Positions 7,793 through 27,906 of a DNA stretch of 54,206 nucleotides are shown here, one piece after another (position 1 is the stretch's first letter; each line of letters starts with the position of its first letter). Position numbers and translations under genes: made by a program. The stretch spans positions 1 through 54,206 of IMG/VR virus record IMGVR_UViG_3300023174_000215. One strand, 5' to 3'. The notes under the pieces are model-generated. The model was given only the letters and a program-made list of their open reading frames with translations. It was not told where the DNA came from and searched no databases. The stretch comes from a virus.

Positions 7793-9274
7793 TTACTGGT
7801 CTTCTATAGATTGTTGAATAATACGAGTTGTTTGTTCTTCATTTAACCCGTTATCTGGTAGCTCGCGGAGTGCTTGTGCCTTGTCTCCAAAGATAGAACT
7901 AAGTACTCCAGCACCGCCTTGGCGTTCAACTGTCATGCGAATAAACTCTCGTGAATCATCTAATTCTTTAGTAGTTTTAATTAACTTAAACAGTCGGTCA
8001 ATCTCCTGCGAAACATTGGGGTCTGCGTATCCACCGTTCATTTCTTCGGTAAAACGCATGAAAGCAACGCGTTGTCCCTGCATTTCAATGATTGCGTTAA
8101 TCAAACTCTTTAGTTGGTCTTTAGTCTTTACTTCAATAGGAAGCTTGAATGCACATACACTTTGGGGTTTAAATGCAGGGCAGTTAGAAGCTACAAAACA
8201 TGTATCGCATTGACGTAAACTAGTGTCTTGTGACTGCACAACAGATACATCTTTAATGACATCATTACCTGTTTCATCTTGCTCTACAACTGACTTATAG
8301 GTGTATCCAAAGACGGGTAAATTGCCCATTTCTTCTGGATTTCGGGGTTCAAGTTTCCGCATCCCACCCCCCTTGTTATCGTTATGTGCAGGAGTAGTTT
8401 CCCCACTTTGCTCCACTTCACTCCACTCGTTGTTATCGTGTAACAGTGCGTCATCTTCGTTACCGTGCATGTTGTTTAACCTCGCTTCAAGTTGTTCAAA
8501 TGACCATACTGCTAATCGACACACCTCTTGTGGGTCGTCTTCCATAATCAAGTCATAGCTTAGACCAGCTTTATCATAGATAGCGCTGTACCTAACTCGG
8601 GCTTGTTCTTTCATCTTCTTGGGGTATCGAACTAATCTTGTTCCGTCCCAGATAATAGTTTCACCGTGCAACATGGGTGCTATCCACGACAGGCTACTAG
8701 CTGATTCAACCTTGACCTGCCTGAGGTTGTCAGGCTTAGCGGTATTGATAGCGTGGAACCTGGTGCCGTATTTATTAAAATAAGTCTTGGTTACTGAGGA
8801 TAGTTGGGTCTCGTATTCAATATCATCGCCCATAATTCCTATGTCCAGGTAGGACTCAACCATAGCCTTGAGGCCTTCAGGGCCCGTCTGGGACTGCCAG
8901 ATAGGTTGGAACTTACCTGGAGGTACCTCGGCCCAACAAGTACGCCGTTGCTCCTCTACGAAGGCTGGGTCAAGTGTTGGATGGGTTACTTCATTAAAGG
9001 TAGTAAGGCGGTCAATGTTATTAGCAACGAACTCTTCATATCCTGCTGCAAACTCTTCAAATTCATTTGGCCCCAGTTTTTCAACTTTGGGAATACCAGC
9101 ATGGACATAGATGTGGGTGTCTTTGCTGAAGTAGTTTTCTAATAGATAGACCTTAGTCTTAGGCAACCCGCGTTTAACAAGGCGCCAATAGCTCACGCCA
9201 ACGTGGTTGGCTGTGGTTGTCTCAAGGAGGGTGCGGTTAGAAGGAACCTCAGCACCCAGATATATCAGTTTCAA
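7793..9274 (-). CDS. TGT/DpdA-like TIM-barrel protein, putative
   Basis: 493 residues. The first 270 resemble actinophage proteins related to tRNA-guanine transglycosylase/DpdA barrels: a start like KLIYLGAEVPSNRTLL, GTRFHAINTAKPDNL, and a SLSWIAPM segment followed by YPKKMKEQAR. The site usually occupied by Asp in the first barrel motif reads YVHAG here, so activity is uncertain. A linker rich in Asp, Glu and Asn (about 285-320) leads to a second part with a four-Cys cluster C-x2-C-x5-C-x7-C (CDTCFVASNCP onward), which could bind zinc or Fe-S. Overlaps the HAD-like gene by 4 nt. Function unproven; base exchange in tRNA or DNA is one possibility. Confidence 0.5.
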   Translation of the reverse strand: MKLIYLGAEVPSNRTLLETTTANHVGVSYWRLVKRGLPKTKVYLLENYFSKDTHIYVHAGIPKVEKLGPNEFEEFAAGYEEFVANNIDRLTTFNEVTHPTLDPAFVEEQRRTCWAEVPPGKFQPIWQSQTGPEGLKAMVESYLDIGIMGDDIEYETQLSSVTKTYFNKYGTRFHAINTAKPDNLRQVKVESASSLSWIAPMLHGETIIWDGTRLVRYPKKMKEQARVRYSAIYDKAGLSYDLIMEDDPQEVCRLAVWSFEQLEARLNNMHGNEDDALLHDNNEWSEVEQSGETTPAHNDNKGGGMRKLEPRNPEEMGNLPVFGYTYKSVVEQDETGNDVIKDVSVVQSQDTSLRQCDTCFVASNCPAFKPQSVCAFKLPIEVKTKDQLKSLINAIIEMQGQRVAFMRFTEEMNGGYADPNVSQEIDRLFKLIKTTKELDDSREFIRMTVERQGGAGVLSSIFGDKAQALRELPDNGLNEEQTTRIIQQSIEDQ

Positions 9275-14930: not shown

Positions 14931-16112
14931 CTAGCGAAACCCACCTAGTACTACTAACTCACGACGGGCATCAAATCCTTCACCAACTACTAAAGATGTG
15001 ATTCCTGGATGAGATTCAAGGCCTGATTTATCTCTAAACCAAGCTGACCCGTTATCCATTGCAGGGTTCTGGATGAACAATCGCATACCAACGCTTTGAA
15101 CATCGTAATGGTGCAAGTGTCCAACATTGAGTATGTCAGCGTTTGCTACTGAACAACGACCCATTACCTGACCTGACCACCACTTCACCATATCTCGTGC
15201 TTGGTGTCCGTGTGCCATTCCGTACAGAGTTCCACTCAAGTTAACGGCAAGGGTGCTGTCATCTTTGGCTGGATATCTAAACTCAACTCTGTCTTTAAGG
15301 AACTCATTTTCTAAACACGCATCTTCTACAGCGCGAACAATCTCAATCTGCCAGGAATCTTCTGGGCGAGATACCAAGAAACGCTGGACTTCATCGTGGT
15401 TACCTGGAACCACGGGAACAATAATCTTTGATGCAAACGGTGCCATAGCTTTAATTTGATTCATAAGGATACGGCGTCCTACTTGTACTTGTTGGGCTAC
15501 GCCAATATCGTGACGCCCCATAACTTTACCTTTTTGGCTTGTCATACCTTCAATGCAATCACCCAATTGGGGTAGTGCAATCTGCCCAATTTTATATTTA
15601 CTTTGTAAAAACTTATGGTGCTCTACTGCTTCTGCAAAGGAACGCAGCACTCTATCTACAATAGCTGGCGTGTCATCTTTACCGTACTGGGTATCTCCAA
15701 GGCTGTATACAGCTGTTAAGTCTCCCTCAAAATCTATTGAACTTTCTGGGCGCCAATTCATCATTGATTCAATAAGTTTTTCCGCATCAAAATCATTTTC
15801 TATTGAAGACTTAACGGGAACAACGTTAATTTTAAATGATTCTAGCCATTCTCCGTCATATCGTTGCCAACGTGAGCGCCTATGTGATGTAACTGCCCAC
15901 TCATTAGGGTCTAAATTTGCTTCTCTAATAATCTCTTCTGCACCTGGAGTGTTGCCATCAGGTCGTGGTGTTGAAACAATAAATCCGCCATCATTACCAA
16001 TTTCAGAACGTGGTCTCCACGCATCTGGAATGTCTTTCATAATATTGTCGGAACCTTCTTGGCCCGCTTTTGTAAAATCATTAAATTCATCTTTTATGGA
16101 CATGAGCACCAT
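14931..16112 (-). CDS. Calcineurin-like metallophosphoesterase
   Basis: 393 residues. The catalytic motifs are all present in order: SLGDTQYGKDD (motif I, with D-x-Q in place of D-x-H), QLGDCIEGM (GD), VPGNHDEVQRF (GNHD), YGMAHGHQARD (GH) and VGHLHHYDVQ (GHxH), which bind two metal ions. About 110 residues precede motif I and have no recognised domain. Such phage enzymes may be nucleases (Mre11/SbcD-like) or phosphodiesterases; the substrate cannot be told. Start uncertain between ATG at 16112 and 16103. Confidence 0.85.
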   Translation of the reverse strand: MVLMSIKDEFNDFTKAGQEGSDNIMKDIPDAWRPRSEIGNDGGFIVSTPRPDGNTPGAEEIIREANLDPNEWAVTSHRRSRWQRYDGEWLESFKINVVPVKSSIENDFDAEKLIESMMNWRPESSIDFEGDLTAVYSLGDTQYGKDDTPAIVDRVLRSFAEAVEHHKFLQSKYKIGQIALPQLGDCIEGMTSQKGKVMGRHDIGVAQQVQVGRRILMNQIKAMAPFASKIIVPVVPGNHDEVQRFLVSRPEDSWQIEIVRAVEDACLENEFLKDRVEFRYPAKDDSTLAVNLSGTLYGMAHGHQARDMVKWWSGQVMGRCSVANADILNVGHLHHYDVQSVGMRLFIQNPAMDNGSAWFRDKSGLESHPGITSLVVGEGFDARRELVVLGGFR

Positions 16113-16361: not shown

Positions 16362-16388
16362 AAAAAGCCCCCCAATTTCTTGGAGGGC
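16362..16388 (-). terminator. Rho-independent terminator, minus strand
   Basis: On the minus strand GCCCTCCAA, loop GAAA, TTGGGGGGC (one G-U pair), followed by T5. It ends transcripts from 16403 and beyond and separates the SpoVS region from the phosphoesterase unit. Built like the terminator at 48170-48195. Confidence 0.9.
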
Positions 16389-16402
16389 CGTTGCTTATTT
16401 AA

Positions 16403-16738
16403 TTATTCTGCCATACCATCATTAAAGTTTGGACGTGAGCGGTTAACGGCTGCTTTAATAATGCGACCATTTCCCTGTGTTGCTGCTGCTTCTGGTGCGG
16501 TTGACTTTTGGAAGCCAACTCGAATACCGTAGCGAGCACCTGCACGTTCAACCATTACTTTGGTACGTGACGGCTTAGCTTGCTTGTATGGGTCTGTGCC
16601 ACCCTTAGCATTGCCAGTCTTTTTCATAAGCTTGCCTTTTTCAGGCATAGCAATGCGTGGTTTTGAACCTGCAGCGTTTGATGGCTCGGCTGATGTCGGA
16701 GCAATCGGTGCTGGGTTCTTCTTTGAATCTGATTTCAT
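16403..16738 (-). CDS. Basic Pro/Ala-rich protein, unknown
   Basis: 111 residues; disordered Ser/Pro/Ala N-terminus, then a basic middle (MPEKGKLMKKTGNAKGG) and a part that looks folded (VMVERAGARYGIRVGFQKS). Strong ribosome site AAAGGAAACC. Last gene before the terminator at 16362. Not recognised; composition resembles the small basic proteins at 12-14 kb. Confidence 0.7.
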   Translation of the reverse strand: MKSDSKKNPAPIAPTSAEPSNAAGSKPRIAMPEKGKLMKKTGNAKGGTDPYKQAKPSRTKVMVERAGARYGIRVGFQKSTAPEAAATQGNGRIIKAAVNRSRPNFNDGMAE

Positions 16739-16797: not shown

Positions 16798-17082
16798 TTA
16801 ACCTGTCACGGTTACAACAAATACAATGGCTGAAATGTCACCATCGTGGCTTTTGATACTTGCAAAGCCTGGGATACAACTTAAATCTAAACCTCTAGGG
16901 GCGCAATAACCACGGGCAATTGCGATTGCTTTGACGGCTTGATTAACGGCTCCAGCACCTACGGCACGGATTTTGCAACCACGAGTCTCATAAATACTAT
17001 GGGCGATTGCTGATGCTACGGCTTGTGGATTTGACCCTGCTGAAACACGCAGGATATTTTCTTCTGATACTGCTTCTGACAT
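16798..17082 (-). CDS. spoVS: SpoVS-like protein
   Basis: 94 residues, full-length match to the stage V sporulation protein S family (usually about 86 residues). The hallmark AGAVNQAVKAIAIARG lies at about 43-58, followed by GLDLSCIPGFASI and a C-terminal strand. The family has an Alba-like fold and is thought to bind nucleic acid; in Bacillus it affects septation and spore coat assembly, and homologues occur in non-sporing bacteria. Ribosome site GAGG 8 nt upstream. A 44-nt stem-loop (17097-17140) lies in the leader. In a phage it could alter host division or gene expression; that is inference. Confidence 0.9.
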   Translation of the reverse strand: MSEAVSEENILRVSAGSNPQAVASAIAHSIYETRGCKIRAVGAGAVNQAVKAIAIARGYCAPRGLDLSCIPGFASIKSHDGDISAIVFVVTVTG

Positions 17083-17096
17083 TGTTATACCTCATT

Positions 17097-17140
17097 ATGC
17101 TCGGATTAGTGTTACCCCCAAATTATGGGTACACGAGCAT
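17097..17140 (-). promoter_or_regulatory. Stem-loop in the SpoVS gene leader
   Basis: Outer arms ATGCTCG (17097-17103) and CGAGCAT (17134-17140), and an inner stem GTG-T-TACCC with GGGTACAC (one bulge), loop about 9 nt. It ends about 7 nt before the ribosome site. No T-run follows, so an attenuator or RNA control element is more likely than a plain terminator. Confidence 0.4.
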
Positions 17141-17146
17141 GTAATA

Positions 17147-17524
17147 TCAGGCTAAACTCTTATCAAAAATCATATGGCAAGAAGTGCACCTAGCCTCATA
17201 ATGCTCTAAATGTACGCAATAAGGGTTTAAATTAGGCCTATCTTTCCTAGCAACTCCATACAATACATTTGAACAACTGTTATTCCAAGTCCAATCATTT
17301 GCAGGAGTTCCACAATCAATGCATTGGTGTTTAGAGGCGCTTCCTTTATTTACTTTTAAACGACCGTGCATTCCCCAATAAGAAACTACATCTTTACGTG
17401 GCCTGCCACCTTTGGTATAACTACGGTTTTCTTTGGGTTGGCTTATCCACCAAGCTTGATAATGGGTGTTACACAAGTTTTTAGCTTTTCCTGGCCTACT
17501 ACAGGCTTCTATAATGCAGTTCAT
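17147..17524 (-). CDS. HNH-like zinc protein, putative nuclease
   Basis: 125 residues starting MNCIIEACSRPGKAKN. N-terminal C-x4-C plus C-x2-H (LCNTHYQAWW) resembles a zinc element common in actinophage HNH proteins; later HQCIDCG, NPYCVHLEHY and RCTSCHMIFD give two C-x2-C pairs and several His, as in HNH nucleases where EHY-like segments carry the catalytic His. The start overlaps the previous stop by 4 nt, which rejects the longer frame to 17572. Could be a homing-type or packaging-associated nuclease. Confidence 0.6.
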   Translation of the reverse strand: MNCIIEACSRPGKAKNLCNTHYQAWWISQPKENRSYTKGGRPRKDVVSYWGMHGRLKVNKGSASKHQCIDCGTPANDWTWNNSCSNVLYGVARKDRPNLNPYCVHLEHYEARCTSCHMIFDKSLA

Positions 17525-17718
17525 ACGTCTAATGGGGTGGGGGCTGTGGCAAGGCTGCCACATAGGGCGCATTCCATATCTAACATATATAAGGATATCT
17601 GCCCTTCTTCAAACTGAGCTTTTACATTCCACAAAGTGGACCCGCAAGCGCAGACGTGAAGTGGCCTATCCTTATCCCTGAGGTCTAGCACCGAAATCTG
17701 CAAGTACGTGATAGGCAA
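17521..17718 (-). CDS. Small zinc-ribbon protein
   Basis: 65 residues from TTG at 17718; a later GTG at 17691 is also possible, since the first choice overlaps the upstream gene by 47 nt. VCACGSTLW and CALCGSLA form a C-x-C and C-x2-C zinc ribbon about 29 residues apart. Stop overlaps the next start (ATGA). Function unknown. Confidence 0.65.
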   Translation of the reverse strand: MPITYLQISVLDLRDKDRPLHVCACGSTLWNVKAQFEEGQISLYMLDMECALCGSLATAPTPLDV

Positions 17719-18286: not shown

Positions 18287-18633
18287 TAATTTTTATCTCC
18301 GTACCCTGCTTCTCGTAGTAAATGTACGAAGTCTTCAAGTCTGAGTAGTGTAACCCATTCTCCGATACCCGCTTCACCTTGACCGTTAAGGCGTAAGACC
18401 GCAACTGGTAAATCTTTTCCATTGTGTCTCTCCTTTAGCTGTTTGATAGCTGCACTTGGATTAAAGCCTGTACGGGATTTTACTTCCCAATCTATACCTA
18501 CCGTGCCTGTGACATCACTACCGCTACGACCTGCCCCCGCGCTTTCTGCAAAGGGAAAGCCGTGCTCAGCTAAGTACATAGCTAGTACCTTCTGGCTTCG
18601 ATAGCCTCTATGTTTGCGTGATTGGCTTGGCAT
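18286..18633 (-). CDS. PD-(D/E)XK nuclease, Holliday-junction-type
   Basis: 115 residues. Basic N-terminus (RKHRGYRSQK), then AGAGRSGSDVTG and IDWEVKSR: the Asp and E-x-K of a PD-(D/E)XK nuclease, in the spacing of Hjc-like resolvases and VRR-type nucleases. It starts on the stop of the following upstream gene. Likely acts on branched DNA intermediates near the end of phage replication. A second nuclease of this type is encoded at 20281-20625. Confidence 0.75.
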   Translation of the reverse strand: MPSQSRKHRGYRSQKVLAMYLAEHGFPFAESAGAGRSGSDVTGTVGIDWEVKSRTGFNPSAAIKQLKERHNGKDLPVAVLRLNGQGEAGIGEWVTLLRLEDFVHLLREAGYGDKN

Positions 18634-19130
18634 TATGCGCTGAACTTATTGGTTCTCATACGGTCACTAGATGTACGGCGAGTGAGCTCACGGCTGGCTA
18701 GGTTGTAGTAACGCTCTAAGTTATCTTGCGTGGTCTCTAACAGTTTACGGTAGGCGTAAGCGTAGTTCTTTACTTTTAATTTACCTTGTATGTCTTCTTG
18801 TACTAAAACAGAGGCCTTTAGTAAGCCCGCTTTTTCAGTAGTTTTACCTGTTGATAGTTTTAATAGAGCCTGTGCTTCACAGAAATCGTAATCGTTTTCT
18901 GCTTCAAGCTCTGCAATCTGGGCGCATGAAACCTGTGTGCGAACCATGTTGTAGTTCTCCATATATTTAGAGGCTAAAACCATAAGGTCTTGGTCATCTA
19001 CTAACGTGACATCATCTGGGAAGTTAGGTATGGACATATCTAATGTCTGACGCATAGGTAACCCTTGGCGCTCTAAAATATCAATAATGTCTTCGGTGAT
19101 ACCTGTGGTTACCAACTTAATCATTGTCAT
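18633..19130 (-). CDS. Helical phage protein, unknown
   Basis: 165 residues, almost wholly predicted helix. The segment PNFPDDVTLVDDQDLMVLAS and the charged helices after it look like conserved actinophage proteins encoded beside recombination genes. It overlaps the Cas4-like gene by 14 nt. Role unknown; a DNA-binding or recombination accessory role would fit the context. Confidence 0.75.
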   Translation of the reverse strand: MTMIKLVTTGITEDIIDILERQGLPMRQTLDMSIPNFPDDVTLVDDQDLMVLASKYMENYNMVRTQVSCAQIAELEAENDYDFCEAQALLKLSTGKTTEKAGLLKASVLVQEDIQGKLKVKNYAYAYRKLLETTQDNLERYYNLASRELTRRTSSDRMRTNKFSA

Positions 19131-19998
19131 ACCCCTTGCACTGGTAGCAACCCTCGTTAGGGCTTATATTACAAGTAGGTGGCATACCTTTGTCAACTGC
19201 CTCTACAATTGATGCAGCAGCCTCTAATAACGGGGCTATACCAAAGTCACTCTTGGCAACTACAAACTCTTTTACTTCTTGCGTAGACTTATTCTCATAC
19301 AGGAACAACGCTTCTTGTGGTTGGTGTTTAAGTCCTATTAACTCAGCTAACTTCATGTACATTTGAGCCTGCATTATGTGGCTCATAAATGGGGCGCTCA
19401 TTGCCTTCCACATCTTGTCAATCTCGCCGTTGTGCTCATAGGTCATCTCTGGAGCTTCAAATCTAAATGTTCCTGCGCCTAATGATTTAATCTCTAACAT
19501 CAATGGCTCACCAAAACCAAGAAGGATTCCATCTGCATGGCCCGAAATTCTTAATGGCTCGTAATGGAGTGAAACTTCTTTGTAACTAAACTTAGTACAG
19601 TCGCATACAGGGCATTTAATATCTGCCATTCCCCACTCTTTTAGCCCGCATCTATTGCACTCATAGATGCCGTACAAGGTACCCATCTCTTGAAAAATGG
19701 ATTGCCAACCTGCATGAATATCGTGACCTGTCTGGAACACACGCTTTTGTTTTAGGGATACCCGATACTTGCTAGGTGGTGGTGGAAAACCTAATAACTG
19801 AAAATAAGATGAACGGTGGCACCAATCTGCTTTAACCATTGCTGATGGATGCAATACATCTGAGCGTCTATCACTTGGCGCTTCTTTTGCAATGTAGTGG
19901 CGCTCTACGGAAGCAAGTACTCTGCTGTCTTTTTTACCCGCATCTACAAACTTCTTTAATGCTCCTGTGGCTTTAAACCCGCTTGCCTTTGACGCCAT
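19117..19998 (-). CDS. Cas4/RecB-like nuclease with Fe-S and zinc sites
   Basis: 293 residues. PD-(D/E)XK core: GHADGIL (Asp156), MLEIKS (Glu169, Lys171) and QAQMYMKL (Q-x3-Y). Four Cys that bracket the core (Cys60, Cys276, Cys284, Cys287) match the Fe-S arrangement of Cas4 and AddB. A separate ribbon, CNRCG (114, 117) and CPVC (129, 132), is inserted before the core. Probably a 5'-3' or structure-specific DNA exonuclease in phage recombination, working with the RecA-like protein. Not CRISPR-linked: no cas1/cas2 or array nearby. Confidence 0.85.
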   Translation of the reverse strand: MASKASGFKATGALKKFVDAGKKDSRVLASVERHYIAKEAPSDRRSDVLHPSAMVKADWCHRSSYFQLLGFPPPPSKYRVSLKQKRVFQTGHDIHAGWQSIFQEMGTLYGIYECNRCGLKEWGMADIKCPVCDCTKFSYKEVSLHYEPLRISGHADGILLGFGEPLMLEIKSLGAGTFRFEAPEMTYEHNGEIDKMWKAMSAPFMSHIMQAQMYMKLAELIGLKHQPQEALFLYENKSTQEVKEFVVAKSDFGIAPLLEAAASIVEAVDKGMPPTCNISPNEGCYQCKGYDND

Positions 19999-20308
19999 TT
20001 TTAATTACCCATTCTTCCAATGTAAGCCCTACCTTAGCAGCTTTTCTCTTCAATGCATTTCGTTCACGATGTGAAAGTCCGCCCCAAATACCGTGTTGTT
20101 CATCCATCTTCTCTGAGTAGAGTAGACATTGAATTCTTACGGGACACTCTGGTGCGCCATCTCGTCCAAAACAGACGGCTTTAGATTTATCAGCAATGTT
20201 TTTATATTTTTCTTTGTCTCGTGGTGGGTACCAAATTTCAGTATCCATACCCCGACATTTAGCGGAGTAACGCCAGTCTTCTACGTTACCTGAACCTTCG
20301 TATGACAA
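19973..20308 (-). CDS. whiB: WhiB-family transcription regulator
   Basis: About 111 residues. Four Cys with spacing C-x27-C-x8-C-x5-C, the GIWGG turn (HGIWGGLSHRER) and a basic C-terminal helix define a WhiB protein, a Fe-S protein that binds the primary sigma factor and is found in Actinobacteria and their phages. Usual WhiB spacing is C-x2-C for the middle pair; here six extra residues (FGRDGAPE between the Cys) are present. Start: TTG at 20308 has GGAG 5 nt upstream; GTG at 20314 is the alternative. Likely redirects host transcription. Confidence 0.9.
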   Translation of the reverse strand: MSYEGSGNVEDWRYSAKCRGMDTEIWYPPRDKEKYKNIADKSKAVCFGRDGAPECPVRIQCLLYSEKMDEQHGIWGGLSHRERNALKRKAAKVGLTLEEWVIKNGVKGKRV

Positions 20309-20625
20309 GTGCACTCCATGAGGGTTTGGCGCATTTCTAGAAAATCATCCTCAAGTAAAAGCACATAATTATTCTCGTTAAGACTTACGCCTAATACAGG
20401 CATTCGACTATCAAGAATTGCTTCATTGACAATTTTTTCCAAAACTGCAGCTTTAACAGTAAAGGAGGTTTTGCCCGTCCACTTATGTTCTATTAAAAGT
20501 TCATCAGTCCGAACATCGCCTTTACGATTCCAAAAAGCTCCACTGGCTGCTGTTCGCTTGCCATCAAACTTTTTTGCTAATCGTGCCTCATGCTTCTTAG
20601 ACTGTCTTTGTCCCTCACTCCTCAT
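20281..20625 (-). CDS. PD-(D/E)XK resolvase-like protein
   Basis: 114 residues. KKHEARLAKKF, then GKRTAASGAFWNRKGDVRTD and LIEHKWT: Asp and E-x-K of a resolvase-type PD-(D/E)XK nuclease, common in actinophages. It overlaps the recA-like gene by 11 nt, so recombinase and junction nuclease are probably made together. C-terminal CTCH may add a metal site. Confidence 0.75.
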   Translation of the reverse strand: MRSEGQRQSKKHEARLAKKFDGKRTAASGAFWNRKGDVRTDELLIEHKWTGKTSFTVKAAVLEKIVNEAILDSRMPVLGVSLNENNYVLLLEDDFLEMRQTLMECTCHTKVQVT

Positions 20626-21688
20626 CGGAGTCTTCGGCTATGAACTTAGACCCAGCTTTAATGGAGTCCAGCACATCCCGTTCAAGGGCTTCTTTCAGGT
20701 CTAACTCTTCCCGTATTGAGCTAAGCATAGCATCTGCACCCTGCCATTGCCGATTCTCGCCCTTAAACTCGTAACGGTAATATGCACCTGCTCGGGTAAT
20801 AACTTTGTTAATAATACCCATAGCAACAACTTCCTTGGCAAAATCATAATTGCCACGGTCTACAGAACCACCATTGGCAAAATAGAAATCCATAAACGCG
20901 GTTTGAGATGGTGGGGCAGACTTGTTCTTCATAGTACGAATTTTGATTGTCTGTCCTACACGGGTCTTTTCTTGGCCCGTACCTTCTTCAATCCAATCAT
21001 CGCGCTTTACCTCTACTCGTGTAAAGAAAGCGTAGTTCTTGCCCTTGCCCCCAGGAGTAGTACGAGGGTCACCATACATAACGCCAACCTTGTCGCGCCA
21101 TTGGTTAATTAAAATACCAATAAATGGGCGCTCCTCAACTACAAGACTTCGCTTGGATGCCTTGCCTACCTTGCGGAAAAACTTATTAGTTAAGAGTGCT
21201 CCTCGTCCAACGGTGAATTCATCCATATCCTTTTCGTCTTCAGCACTAGGAATAAGGGCAGGAAGGCTATCAATAATGACGCAATCCACAGCTTTACTTT
21301 CAACCAACTCAATAACTGCTTCATATGCTTCCTCCATAATATTTGTAGAAATTACATACACACGAGATAAATCAACCCCGCACATTTCAGCATAAGAAGG
21401 AACCCATTCTTCTGCTGCTACCCACACAGTTGTAAACTCTGGGTCACGGTCTTGATTAGCTGCAACTGTCTTTAACGCTACAGCAGTTTTACCATTTGAT
21501 TCTTCACCAATTAGTTCGTGCCATTGATTAACGGGCCATCCACCACCTAATGCAACATCAAATGAAAGTGAGCCTGTTGTAAAACGACCAATTGTGTTCT
21601 GAATGTTCTCGCCCAAAATGATGGTATCGGCACCCATCTTTTTGTTAATCTTATTAATTACTTTTAATAGTTCTGCGTTAACTGCCAT
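20615..21688 (-). CDS. recA: RecA-like recombinase
   Basis: 357 residues. Walker A GEESNGKT at 61-68, Walker B DCVIID ending at Asp140, and an L2-type segment GDPRTTPGGKGKNYAF (about 211-226) identify a RecA/UvsX-type strand-exchange protein. The FTTGSLSFDVALGGG segment before Walker A is typical of RecA. C-terminus acidic (EDSDEE), as in RecA. Drives recombination and recombination-dependent replication with the resolvase and Cas4-like nuclease encoded next to it. Confidence 0.95.
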   Translation of the reverse strand: MAVNAELLKVINKINKKMGADTIILGENIQNTIGRFTTGSLSFDVALGGGWPVNQWHELIGEESNGKTAVALKTVAANQDRDPEFTTVWVAAEEWVPSYAEMCGVDLSRVYVISTNIMEEAYEAVIELVESKAVDCVIIDSLPALIPSAEDEKDMDEFTVGRGALLTNKFFRKVGKASKRSLVVEERPFIGILINQWRDKVGVMYGDPRTTPGGKGKNYAFFTRVEVKRDDWIEEGTGQEKTRVGQTIKIRTMKNKSAPPSQTAFMDFYFANGGSVDRGNYDFAKEVVAMGIINKVITRAGAYYRYEFKGENRQWQGADAMLSSIREELDLKEALERDVLDSIKAGSKFIAEDSDEE

Positions 21689-22056: not shown

Positions 22057-22522
22057 CATCGTACTCCTTAAAGAAAGACCCAACGTTAACTGCGTTGGGG
22101 TAGATAATACCTAATTCTATTGCAGAAGAGAAGGCAGATATAAGTGCTGAAAAACCTACTGCATGGTACAAATCACGCATGAGCCTAACATCATTTTCCA
22201 TCTCTTGGTCAATTTCTTTTTCTTTGCCTAGCTCATAAAGTTGCGATGTAGTAATAATCTTAGCGTTGAGCTCGCTAATAATGTCTAAATAAGGAATCAA
22301 AGTGTCAAGGCTAGCAAGACGAAGTTCGCTGTCTTCCTCTTCTTTTTCGTGTCCTTCATCGCTGACTGGATTTAATCCAAGGGCTACAGCAATATCATTT
22401 GTATCTGGAATACTCATGTCGTAGAGATACCAACGTGTTAATGTACTAAATGGAATTTCATTTTTAATAATGTCATACTCTTCACCGCTACCGCGATTAA
22501 AGAACCTTTTCATCCAACTCAT
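22046..22522 (-). CDS. Phage replication-region protein, unknown
   Basis: 158 residues, acidic middle (EGHEKEEEDSE), mostly helical, hydrophobic C-terminal helix (GFSALISAFSSAIELGII) not clearly a membrane span. Overlaps the polymerase stop by 4 nt. Conserved-looking but not recognised; may be a polymerase partner. Confidence 0.75.
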   Translation of the reverse strand: MSWMKRFFNRGSGEEYDIIKNEIPFSTLTRWYLYDMSIPDTNDIAVALGLNPVSDEGHEKEEEDSELRLASLDTLIPYLDIISELNAKIITTSQLYELGKEKEIDQEMENDVRLMRDLYHAVGFSALISAFSSAIELGIIYPNAVNVGSFFKEYDDEQ

Positions 22523-24492
22523 TTAGCCTCGCCCCACTTCTGTACAATTTTAACGTCAGCAATAAGGGGGACATTTAGAAGGTCAATACCTTCCATAGCC
22601 GCTCTGATGGCTTCTGCAGTCTCTTCTGCAATACTGTCTGGTGCCACTGTCACAATTTCATCGTGAATAGTAAGGATTAGTCTAGCCTCATTTGGAATCA
22701 TCTTATATGCGCGAATCATGGCAAGTTTAATAATGTCGGCTGCAGAACCCTGAATACGAGTATTGAACGCTTGACGCTCAGCGGATGACTTAAATCCAAA
22801 GTCTCTTGAGTTAATATCGGGCAGGTATCTTCTTCGCCCCAAAATTGTAGAGACATAGCCTTTAACTCTTGTTCCTCCTACAACACGCAAACGATACTTG
22901 TTGACTGAATTAAACTTAGCTGAGAAGTCATTAAGTAGTTTTTTAGCCTCAGTAACGCTACATCCAATCTGACTTGCAATTTTGTCAGGGCCTACGCCGT
23001 AAGCCATAGCCAATACAAGTACCTTGCCAGCCTTGCGGTCTACTCCCATAGTGTTACCCACGGTTGTATAAATATCTCCACCCTTTAAATAGTTGTCCAT
23101 CATAATTGGGTCTTGTGACATAGATGCAATCACTCTAGGTTCAATCTGAGAATAGTCAGCCACTACTAGTTTGTATCCTGGTGGTGCATAAAACAAGTTA
23201 CGAATTGCCTTACCGTGGGCGGTGTGTGGTGCTGGAACATTTTGTAAGTTGGGGTTACGGCTAGAAAAACGACCAGTCTCTGCTCCGTGCTGTACAAAGT
23301 CACAATGAATCTTGCCGTTAATCAAAAGAGTTTCTTTATGCTCAATTTTAGATTTACCGTTGCTGGTGCGGGTCACATCTCCACCCAAATAGGGCACTAC
23401 ATAAGTAGTCAACAACTTATTTAAATCTGAATACTCCAACAGTGCTTTAACTAAAGGGTTGGCCTCTCGATACATCTCTAGCGCATCTGCTGCAACTGAG
23501 TAATCGGTTGACTCTAGCGGAATCTTTTCTTCGTGTTTCTTTTTACCGCCCGTAGTTAGAAGCTTTGGCTTTATGCCTTGGCCCCCGTCCTCCTTCTTCC
23601 CGTAGAGAACTTCTTGCTTATCAGCGTTTGAATTGATGTTAAACACCCGACCAGCAATTCTATAAATCTCCGAACGTGCTTTTTCAATATCTTCTTCTAA
23701 CTGAGTATGCAGGGCTATTAGTTGTTCAGTATCAATCGGTGCACCCGATAATTTCATAGCGCATAAAACTTCAAGGACACCCATCTCAAGGTTCATTACC
23801 TTAGTAAGTTGTCCCTCTTCAAGTTTTGGTAGCAAAGCTTTATAAAGCATAAATGTGTACTTAGCGTCTAAATATGCATATTTAGCAACAGTATCAAAGG
23901 AATACTTCTCAACTTCTTTACCTACGCCTTTAACCATATGGTAGTTAAACTCTCGCGCCAAACAATCATCTAAACCGCATTTATTCTTGTTCTTGTTGTC
24001 ATAGAGGAAAGAGGCAATCATCGTGTCAAAGTAAGGCCCAACAGGGACTTTACCGCCATAGTATTTAGCTACTGAAGTTAAATCAAAAACAAGGTTGTGA
24101 CCAATCAGTAGTCGGTCTTTACCAAACATTAAAGGTTCAAGAGCGGCAAATACTTCTGCAGGAAATAACTGTGGTGGGGGTGGACCAAAACTAACTGTTG
24201 CTTTTTTCTTATCTCGTGAGTAATCAGCTTCTCGTGCAGGTAATCCCGCAGCAACTCTTTTTTCGCCTTGACCTGTTAAAGGAAAAACTTCAGATTCAAA
24301 CTCTCCGTTTGGGTGGCCTAAAGGAATAACATCTCCACGACCATATGTAGATAAAGAAATCCACAGCACTTCATTAACGACTGTTACGCCTCGTTGTGGC
24401 CCTACTGTTTCTACATCGTAGGCAAAAGTATCTTGCTTAAGATAGTAAGTAACCATCTCATCAAGTTGTTCTTTTGTTGTAATGATATTCAT
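22519..24492 (-). CDS. polA: Family A DNA polymerase with 3'-5' exonuclease
   Basis: 657 residues. Proofreading exonuclease: AYDVETV (Asp26, Glu28), GHNLVFDL (about 131-138) and AYLDAKYT (Asp209). Polymerase motif A VADYSQIEPR (Asp446), motif B KAGKVLVLAMAYG (about 487-499) and motif C TIHDEIV (His610, Asp611, Glu612). No 5'-3' exonuclease domain, so it is like the short phage PolA enzymes that copy phage DNA. Motif B lacks the bulky Phe found in host PolI at one position (RKAGKVLVLAMAYG reads Leu there), a substitution known in many viral PolA types. A strong hairpin lies just upstream. Confidence 0.95.
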   Translation of the reverse strand: MNIITTKEQLDEMVTYYLKQDTFAYDVETVGPQRGVTVVNEVLWISLSTYGRGDVIPLGHPNGEFESEVFPLTGQGEKRVAAGLPAREADYSRDKKKATVSFGPPPPQLFPAEVFAALEPLMFGKDRLLIGHNLVFDLTSVAKYYGGKVPVGPYFDTMIASFLYDNKNKNKCGLDDCLAREFNYHMVKGVGKEVEKYSFDTVAKYAYLDAKYTFMLYKALLPKLEEGQLTKVMNLEMGVLEVLCAMKLSGAPIDTEQLIALHTQLEEDIEKARSEIYRIAGRVFNINSNADKQEVLYGKKEDGGQGIKPKLLTTGGKKKHEEKIPLESTDYSVAADALEMYREANPLVKALLEYSDLNKLLTTYVVPYLGGDVTRTSNGKSKIEHKETLLINGKIHCDFVQHGAETGRFSSRNPNLQNVPAPHTAHGKAIRNLFYAPPGYKLVVADYSQIEPRVIASMSQDPIMMDNYLKGGDIYTTVGNTMGVDRKAGKVLVLAMAYGVGPDKIASQIGCSVTEAKKLLNDFSAKFNSVNKYRLRVVGGTRVKGYVSTILGRRRYLPDINSRDFGFKSSAERQAFNTRIQGSAADIIKLAMIRAYKMIPNEARLILTIHDEIVTVAPDSIAEETAEAIRAAMEGIDLLNVPLIADVKIVQKWGEAK

Positions 24493-26316: not shown

Positions 26317-27906
26317 TTACACCGTTGAAAGAGATAAGAAAGCTCTCAAACTACCTACATTTAAAGGAACTCCACCTTTATCGTCAATGCCTTCTCCGTC
26401 AATAATAGCGTTTGCAATTGAAGATTTCTGTTGTAGAGCATCGTATTGGCGCTCTTCAATAGAACCACCAATCAAAATATCTTGAATAACTATTGTCTGC
26501 CATGTTGACGAAGCTCGTTTAATTCTTCCGTTTCTTTGAATGGCAGCGCCAGAACTCCACGGAAGGTCATAATTAATAAGAAGGTTAGCGGCAGGTAAAT
26601 CAACTCCATACCCACCAGCGTCAGAGCTAATAAGAACGCGAATGTTAGGCTCTGTATTGAAGGCAATTTTGTTCTCCTCTTTAGTCTTAGCATCTAATTG
26701 ACCTGAGTAAAGTCGACATTGTTCTGGCCCCAAATTTTGAGCAATCATATCTAGCATGTCTACAAAAGTAGCAAAGATAACTACTTTGTTTTCTGGGCTT
26801 TGGTCTAAGAAGTCATTGACATACTCTAGAAGGGTATCCAACTTAACTGAGTTAACTACGCCATCTAAATGTCCCGCAGCTACAAGTTCTGCAGCGTAAG
26901 CGGAGCCTTGTCCATTTTGGTCATTAAACTTCTTAGCGCTGGTTCGTATTAAATTTGGGTGGGAACATAATTGTTTAAGCGCACCAATCTTGGACATAAT
27001 CTTGCCACGCATTTCATCTTCTTTACCGCCACGAGAGTTGTCGTAACCGTAATGAGCCAAGATATTAAAAGAGGTGCCAAACATGCTTTGTGCTTCATCT
27101 AAGTCATGGAGTAAATCGCCTTGAATGCGGTCGTACAACTTTGCAGACTTGCGGTCAAAGGTAATGAGGATGGGGTCTTTATGAATTGAGTCTGGCAAAA
27201 ACGGAGCAACGTCTGCATCTTTTTGGGCTTTACGAACTGACGCCTCTTTCATCTTCTCGTGTAGTACTGGAAGATTACGGTATCTATCTACCCCACCCCA
27301 AGAATTGCGAACAATAAAAGCTGAATCAAAGATGTCAAAGCGCCCTAATACCTCTGAGTCAACAAACTGCATGATGCTATAGAGCTCTTCTGGTTTTCCA
27401 TTTTCAATAGGAGTTCCAGTAAGCGCAAATTTATATGGGGAGTTAGTTAATTTTTTTGTGTACTTTGACCGTTTAGATTTGAAGGATTTAATGGCGGTTG
27501 CTTCGTCAATGACGACAAATCCTCTGGGAAGCTTCTTGACGGAATCCCAGTCGTTAACAACTTGCTCGTAGTTAAGGATGATGTAATCAACCTTTGTAGT
27601 GCGCCAGTTGTATGCGTCTTCGTATTGAAGTGCCCGTTTCTTCGGCGTTCCATCAATAACCAAAGCTTTAGAAGTGCCACTTGTAAATTTCTCAATCTGA
27701 TTAGCCCACTGGTATTTAAGTGAGGATAAACAGATTACCAAACCTGGCTCAGTAATTTTGCCCGAATCCATGAGACGTTCTACAGCGGCAATAGTGAGGA
27801 CTGTCTTGCCTAGACCAAGGTCATAGGCCACCAACATCTTCTGCCTTTCACACATGCGGTTAACAGCCTCAGGCTGGTAAGGCAGTAGCGTTCCCGTAAA
27901 AGTCAT
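26317..27906 (-). CDS. SNF2-type superfamily 2 helicase
   Basis: 529 residues. Q-like YQPEAV at 10-15, Walker A DLGLGKT (29-35), motif II VVIDEAT (131-137, DEAT for DEAH), ALTGTPIENG (motif III), and C-terminal VVIFATF, LYSGQLDAKTKE, SSDAGGYGVDLP and QRNGRIKR (motifs IV-VI). An ATP-driven DNA translocase used in replication, repair or recombination. Ends before the RHH gene; start ATG 4 nt after the dNMP kinase stop. Confidence 0.9.
   Translation of the reverse strand: MTFTGTLLPYQPEAVNRMCERQKMLVAYDLGLGKTVLTIAAVERLMDSGKITEPGLVICLSSLKYQWANQIEKFTSGTSKALVIDGTPKKRALQYEDAYNWRTTKVDYIILNYEQVVNDWDSVKKLPRGFVVIDEATAIKSFKSKRSKYTKKLTNSPYKFALTGTPIENGKPEELYSIMQFVDSEVLGRFDIFDSAFIVRNSWGGVDRYRNLPVLHEKMKEASVRKAQKDADVAPFLPDSIHKDPILITFDRKSAKLYDRIQGDLLHDLDEAQSMFGTSFNILAHYGYDNSRGGKEDEMRGKIMSKIGALKQLCSHPNLIRTSAKKFNDQNGQGSAYAAELVAAGHLDGVVNSVKLDTLLEYVNDFLDQSPENKVVIFATFVDMLDMIAQNLGPEQCRLYSGQLDAKTKEENKIAFNTEPNIRVLISSDAGGYGVDLPAANLLINYDLPWSSGAAIQRNGRIKRASSTWQTIVIQDILIGGSIEERQYDALQQKSSIANAIIDGEGIDDKGGVPLNVGSLRAFLSLSTV

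Follow-up and report, generated by a model that had tools for sequence, protein, structure and literature searches.

The window analysed here is a 54,206-base fragment from IMG/VR with a GC content of 42.7%; related records reach about 98 kb. It encodes a tail sheath, a tail tube, a baseplate, a phage-type RNR and a family A DNA polymerase, and derives from a contractile-tailed phage. Among isolates with a named host, the BRock group of Streptomyces phages stands nearest to it, both by polymerase (39% identity) and by SpoVS (about 50%). Since the phage also encodes a WhiB-like protein, and the literature regards WhiB as confined to Actinobacteria (PMC6802176, PMC10202952), the host is likely to be actinobacterial. 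Host contamination of the contig is ruled out, since 80 viral contigs, and isolate phages too, share the identical gene order.

The spoVS locus and its gene map

The gene under study runs on the minus strand from 17082 to 16798, with an ATG start and the stop codon included, and encodes a protein of 94 amino acids. A sequence-only reading of this DNA had placed the frame at exactly these coordinates and had left the strand unstated; the plus strand across the same interval is full of stops. The product matches the Pfam family PF04232 (SpoVS) at profile positions 1–82 of 83 with 99.6 bits (E 8.3e-29), well above the curated cut-off of 24 bits, as well as PHROG 35646 'sporulation protein' (E 1.2e-26) and the Thermus SpoVS structures PDB 2EH1 and 2EK0 (E 1e-15); a chance match is ruled out by the Pfam and PDB scores. 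The protein contains AGAVNQAVKAIAIARG, in agreement with the earlier description of a full-length SpoVS with its hallmark, and the columns of the core G-A-x-A-V-N-Q-x-x-K-A are invariant or nearly so in phage and cellular rows alike. The features around the gene are collected in Table 1.

Table 1 Features of the spoVS region in the window
Feature	Position	Strand	Basis or remark
Queuine tRNA-ribosyltransferase-like gene	7793..9274	-	PHROG 887; annotated downstream in BRock as well
Mre11/SbcD-type exonuclease	14931..16112	-	PHROG 284; after the cassette
Intrinsic terminator	16366..16389	-	10-bp stem, GAAA loop, T tail; sequence, conserved in relatives
111-aa basic, low-complexity protein	16403..16738	-	Second cassette gene
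spoVS, 94 aa	16798..17082	-	Full-length PF04232, Alba-like fold; Pfam, PHROG, PDB, AF2 model
GAGG, probable ribosome-binding site	17090..17093	-	Read directly from the sequence
Sigma-70-like promoter element, CTGATA-17-CATAAT	17122..17150	-	40 bp upstream of the spoVS ATG; conserved in relatives
HNH-type gene	17147..17572	-	PHROG-type search; comparison with locus L002
65-aa Cys-rich protein	17521..17718	-	Conserved position
165-aa protein	18633..19130	-	Follows the exonuclease
Cas4-like/phage exonuclease	19117..19998	-	PHROG 2506; conserved order
WhiB-like protein	19973..20314	-	PF02467, 57 bits; Cys spacing C-x8-C-x5-C
Holliday junction resolvase	20281..20625	-	PHROG 2002
RecA/UvsX-like recombinase	20615..21688	-	Pfam/PHROG-type family matches
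Family A DNA polymerase	22519..24492	-	
SNF2/DEAD-type helicase	26317..27906	-	Conserved in the same module

For comparison with relatives, a first set of 80 loci was picked by SpoVS similarity. Because this choice biases any estimate of SpoVS conservation, loci were instead collected via the neighbouring recA, without regard to SpoVS. A search from the SpoVS side of Streptomyces phage BRock yielded another set of 80 loci, which includes BRock itself and high-GC relatives.

In a promoter scan of the single window, sites such as the sigma-70-like element upstream of spoVS were no commoner than chance, but the element is credible because it is conserved across relatives. Of 45 non-redundant window-type loci, 36 have the motif CATA[AC]T in the expected interval upstream of spoVS, a count that relatedness inflates, against about 1.3 expected and a maximum of 5 in mononucleotide shuffles; the motif lies mostly 42–51 nt from the ATG, and in many cases a -35-like hexamer accompanies it at 17 nt. 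Downstream of spoVS follows the gene for the 111-aa protein, which found no Pfam or PHROG family match. This gene occupies the same place in 72 of the 80 loci of the SpoVS-similarity set and is present in all 30 recA-anchored loci that are long enough to tell. Nearly all window-type relatives listed have a stem-loop with a T-rich tail about 390–430 nt past the stop codon of spoVS; the stem sequence differs from one to another. The conserved promoter-like element and terminator make spoVS and the 111-aa gene look like a two-gene cassette, with what may be its own transcription start and stop.

The HNH-type gene is a lineage-specific insertion just upstream of spoVS, between it and its usual neighbour. 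About 350 bp (17164–17511) have no counterpart in a related locus (L002) whose SpoVS protein is identical, and no homologue of the gene was found in either locus set tested. The usual upstream neighbour in window-type phages is the gene for the 65-aa protein, which has two CxC/CxxC-type pairs; it occurs in 77 of the 80 SpoVS-similarity loci and in 33 of 33 recA-anchored loci, and most of the more distant loci yielded no homologue. The 165-aa protein is a weak homologue of LuckySocke gp160, annotated as SSB by its depositors. The queuine tRNA-ribosyltransferase-like gene suggests modification of DNA or tRNA with deazaguanines.

Conservation and age of the phage gene

SpoVS is encoded in all 32 recA-anchored loci that extend for 6 kb or more downstream of recA; among the loci collected in this way WhiB was found in 70/70, the resolvase in 74/74 and the exonuclease in 59/59. 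Comparison of paired medians over the 47 loci that hold all five proteins makes SpoVS the most conserved of them, with a median identity of 82%, followed by RecA (77%), WhiB (76%), the Holliday junction resolvase (74%) and the exonuclease (57%). The order recA, resolvase, whiB, cas4-like exonuclease, spoVS extends at 30–50% identity to the Streptomyces phages BRock and LuckySocke, and the same order of recA (where detected), resolvase, WhiB, exonuclease and SpoVS is seen in those contigs of the BRock-side set that are long enough. The annotations of BRock and LuckySocke comprise a polymerase, a RecA-like recombinase (a name annotated in LuckySocke only), a Holliday junction resolvase, WhiB, a Cas4-type exonuclease, a RuvC-like resolvase and SpoVS, and genes beyond SpoVS are also common to the window and the BRock group (30–47% identity). 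The SpoVS of these two phages (gp51 in BRock, annotated as a sporulation protein; PHROG 35646) shares about 50% identity, the clade and the gene order with that of the window. Unlike in the window, it follows the RuvC-like resolvase, and both phages lack a close homologue of the 111-aa gene.

The presence of WhiB in the same segment, emphasized in the sequence-only reading, proved to be a general property: WhiB lies 3 kb upstream of spoVS, and the pairing is conserved across the lineage. The WhiB match is well above the PF02467 cut-off of 23.6 bits. The canonical spacing of WhiB cluster cysteines is C-x2-C-x5-C; in 202 of 212 loci the second and third Cys of the phage protein are separated by eight residues instead of the usual two (C-x8-C-x5-C). 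About half of twenty related records have WhiB matches at two places, the second far from spoVS.

In a tree of 56 SpoVS proteins (94 columns, bootstrap not settled, actinobacterial chromosomes represented by Collinsella alone), the 28 phage proteins of the lineage form one side of a 100/100 branch with a stem of 1.2 changes per site. This clade stands apart from the sampled cellular SpoVS and from five other phage SpoVS (of Lysinibacillus, Stenotrophomonas and Bacillus phages and two gut phages), which scatter among the cellular ones in a way that is consistent with separate acquisitions. The dN/dS of spoVS has a median of 0.10 between the window and 38 relatives with usable dS, and is 0.02 in close pairs; the gene is under strong purifying selection. 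The old clade and the low dN/dS contradict a recent, non-functional capture, the case that the sequence-only reading had set against its own proposal, and a decaying gene is likewise ruled out. A recently host-acquired auxiliary gene was also considered and rejected, as presence is not patchy in the recA-anchored loci and the clade is separate, in a tree where Collinsella stands for the Actinobacteria.

The proposal that the phage SpoVS is host-derived found no support. Among the best 80 matches listed, the nearest cellular SpoVS, at 50–58% identity, belong to Bacillota, Thermotogota, Atribacterota, Synergistota, Dictyoglomota and similar groups. No actinobacterial SpoVS was among these 80 best of a scan of cellular genome contigs; Corynebacterium glutamicum, used as a control, gave no SpoVS match, and Collinsella carries a SpoVS. 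An old actinobacterial origin of the phage gene is possible, because actinobacterial chromosomes were hardly sampled. In the sampled loci spoVS belongs to the old core gene set of one probable actinophage lineage, unlike auxiliary genes that are captured now and then, and it is more central to the phage than the sequence-only reading supposed.

Predicted fold and possible function

SpoVS has been assigned to the Alba superfamily (PMC11621453). The AlphaFold2 model of the phage protein (pLDDT 90.9, pTM 0.80) resembles the solved Thermus and Bacillus SpoVS structures with TM scores of 0.86–0.87 (0.86 to 2EK0), and after these come Alba proteins (TM 0.63 for 1H0X), which bears out the Alba-like fold proposed from the sequence. 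The likeness to the Alba chromatin/RNA-binding proteins is one of fold: the structural alignment with 1H0X has only 18% identity, and a sequence-level match to Alba was not found at E values up to 10. With the SpoVS family (PF04232; B. subtilis SpoVS; Thermus 2EH1/2EK0) the phage protein has the full-length match, the fold and the core motif in common. It differs from cellular SpoVS in its gene neighbourhood and in residues fixed in the phage clade: Y31 and, at the end of strand 2, R39 (R/K and Q, respectively, in cellular SpoVS), an invariant R63 that closes helix 2, and a DG-x-I-S-A turn in the strand 3–4 beta-hairpin (EERTA in cellular SpoVS). These positions would fall roughly on the elements with which Alba touches nucleic acid.

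By analogy with Alba, the likeliest reading, to which we give a probability of about 0.48, is that the phage SpoVS binds nucleic acids as an accessory protein in the replication/recombination of phage DNA. Its promoter-like element would drive expression of spoVS and of the gene for the small basic protein as one unit, which the terminator ends. Like other Alba-fold proteins, SpoVS would be small, would probably form dimers and would bind nucleic acid, coating or organising phage DNA during replication or recombination, or else phage transcripts. It would share this work with RecA/UvsX, the resolvase and the Cas4-like nuclease, in many cases also with the Mre11-type nuclease, and would not act as a sporulation factor. 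In favour of such a role, the neighbours of cellular spoVS (rnc, smc, rny/ymdB) are nucleic-acid genes also. Against it, the net charge of the phage protein is only about +1, genetic work in Bacillus links SpoVS with septation and with the expression of developmental genes (PMC8510167), and the SpoVS literature found contains no report of nucleic-acid binding by any SpoVS. Furthermore, a position in the recombination region and a promoter-like element of its own do not prove a role in recombination.

The Bacillus work gives weight to a different view, in line with the sequence-only reading, namely that SpoVS acts with WhiB during infection to block or redirect host septation or development, or to rewire host transcription. 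In spoVS mutants polar septation and sigE/spoIIE expression are altered, although the effect is possibly indirect (PMC8510167), and the WhiB of phage TM4 is reported, in passages of two papers that cite the work (PMC6172770, PMC10202952), to inhibit septation and to exclude superinfection. The conserved co-occurrence of SpoVS and WhiB would fit as well. However, recombination genes lie between these two genes, several larger related records have a second WhiB elsewhere, the nearest-match search and the tree gave no recent host origin, and the company that spoVS keeps is one of recombination, not division. Steering of the host in this way therefore seems unlikely to us.

The cellular neighbourhoods can also be taken to point to RNA, with an Alba-fold SpoVS that would bind RNA and protect or channel phage transcripts. 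Of the 80 nearest cellular relatives, 52 adjoin rnc and/or smc and four are beside rny/ymdB, rny is near spoVS in Collinsella and Bacillus, and structures of Alba and Rpp20/25 with RNA are among the fold matches. Yet smc is nearly as frequent as rnc beside cellular spoVS, and next to the phage gene no ribonuclease was found, its neighbours being DNA-recombination genes, so that regulation at the RNA level is improbable in our judgement. Another partner could be a calcineurin-like phosphoesterase (YmdB/YunD in cells, the Mre11-like protein in phages), which SpoVS would target or regulate. PDB entry 9A7H is titled as a model of YunD with SpoVS (integrative, crosslinking mass spectrometry), Bacillus spoVS follows a TIGR00282 metallophosphoesterase gene, and a Mre11-type gene comes after the phage cassette in 20 of 26 recA-anchored loci. 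This partnership is nevertheless very unlikely for the phage protein: no Mre11 homologue was detected in the Streptomyces-phage stretches examined, the terminator separates the cassette from the Mre11-type gene, and the rny/ymdB context is confined to the four cellular relatives mentioned above. In cells, entry 9A7H is a possible clue to SpoVS function.

Meaning for phage and cellular SpoVS

The occurrence of spoVS on a phage is in itself no discovery, since it is common and already on record in PHROGs and GenBank and in several papers on viromes. SpoVS relatives are encoded by at least 588 viral stretches of IMG/VR and by 14 phage records, some annotated as such. Passages of a study of permafrost soil (PMC6172770), where whiB is found too, and of one on a marine oxygen minimum zone (PMC8940887) discuss viral spoVS as an auxiliary gene and read it as regulation of host sporulation, whereas here it is a core gene of probable actinophages. 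A viral spoVS should thus not be taken as proof that viruses manipulate sporulation. The gene is also found on plasmids: a mobilizable plasmid of Priestia megaterium (L327) carries spoVS beside an HU-family DNA-binding gene, and 9 of 17 plasmid matches are to Priestia plasmids.

That SpoVS has become, in the actinophage lineage, a chromatin or recombination factor dedicated to the phage and expressed autonomously along with a small basic protein as its partner, is a tentative and rather doubtful proposition. The SpoVS literature found is concerned with mutant phenotypes and fold and not with a molecular activity. With a phage lineage that always keeps SpoVS and has isolates on laboratory Streptomyces hosts (LuckySocke and Alone3 have S. 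lividans JI 1326 as host), the protein could be studied in a clean genetic system where sporulation does not intrude. If the proposition is true, SpoVS gains a molecular function, nucleic-acid organisation, that is unrelated to sporulation and that would explain the spread of SpoVS in non-sporulating bacteria.
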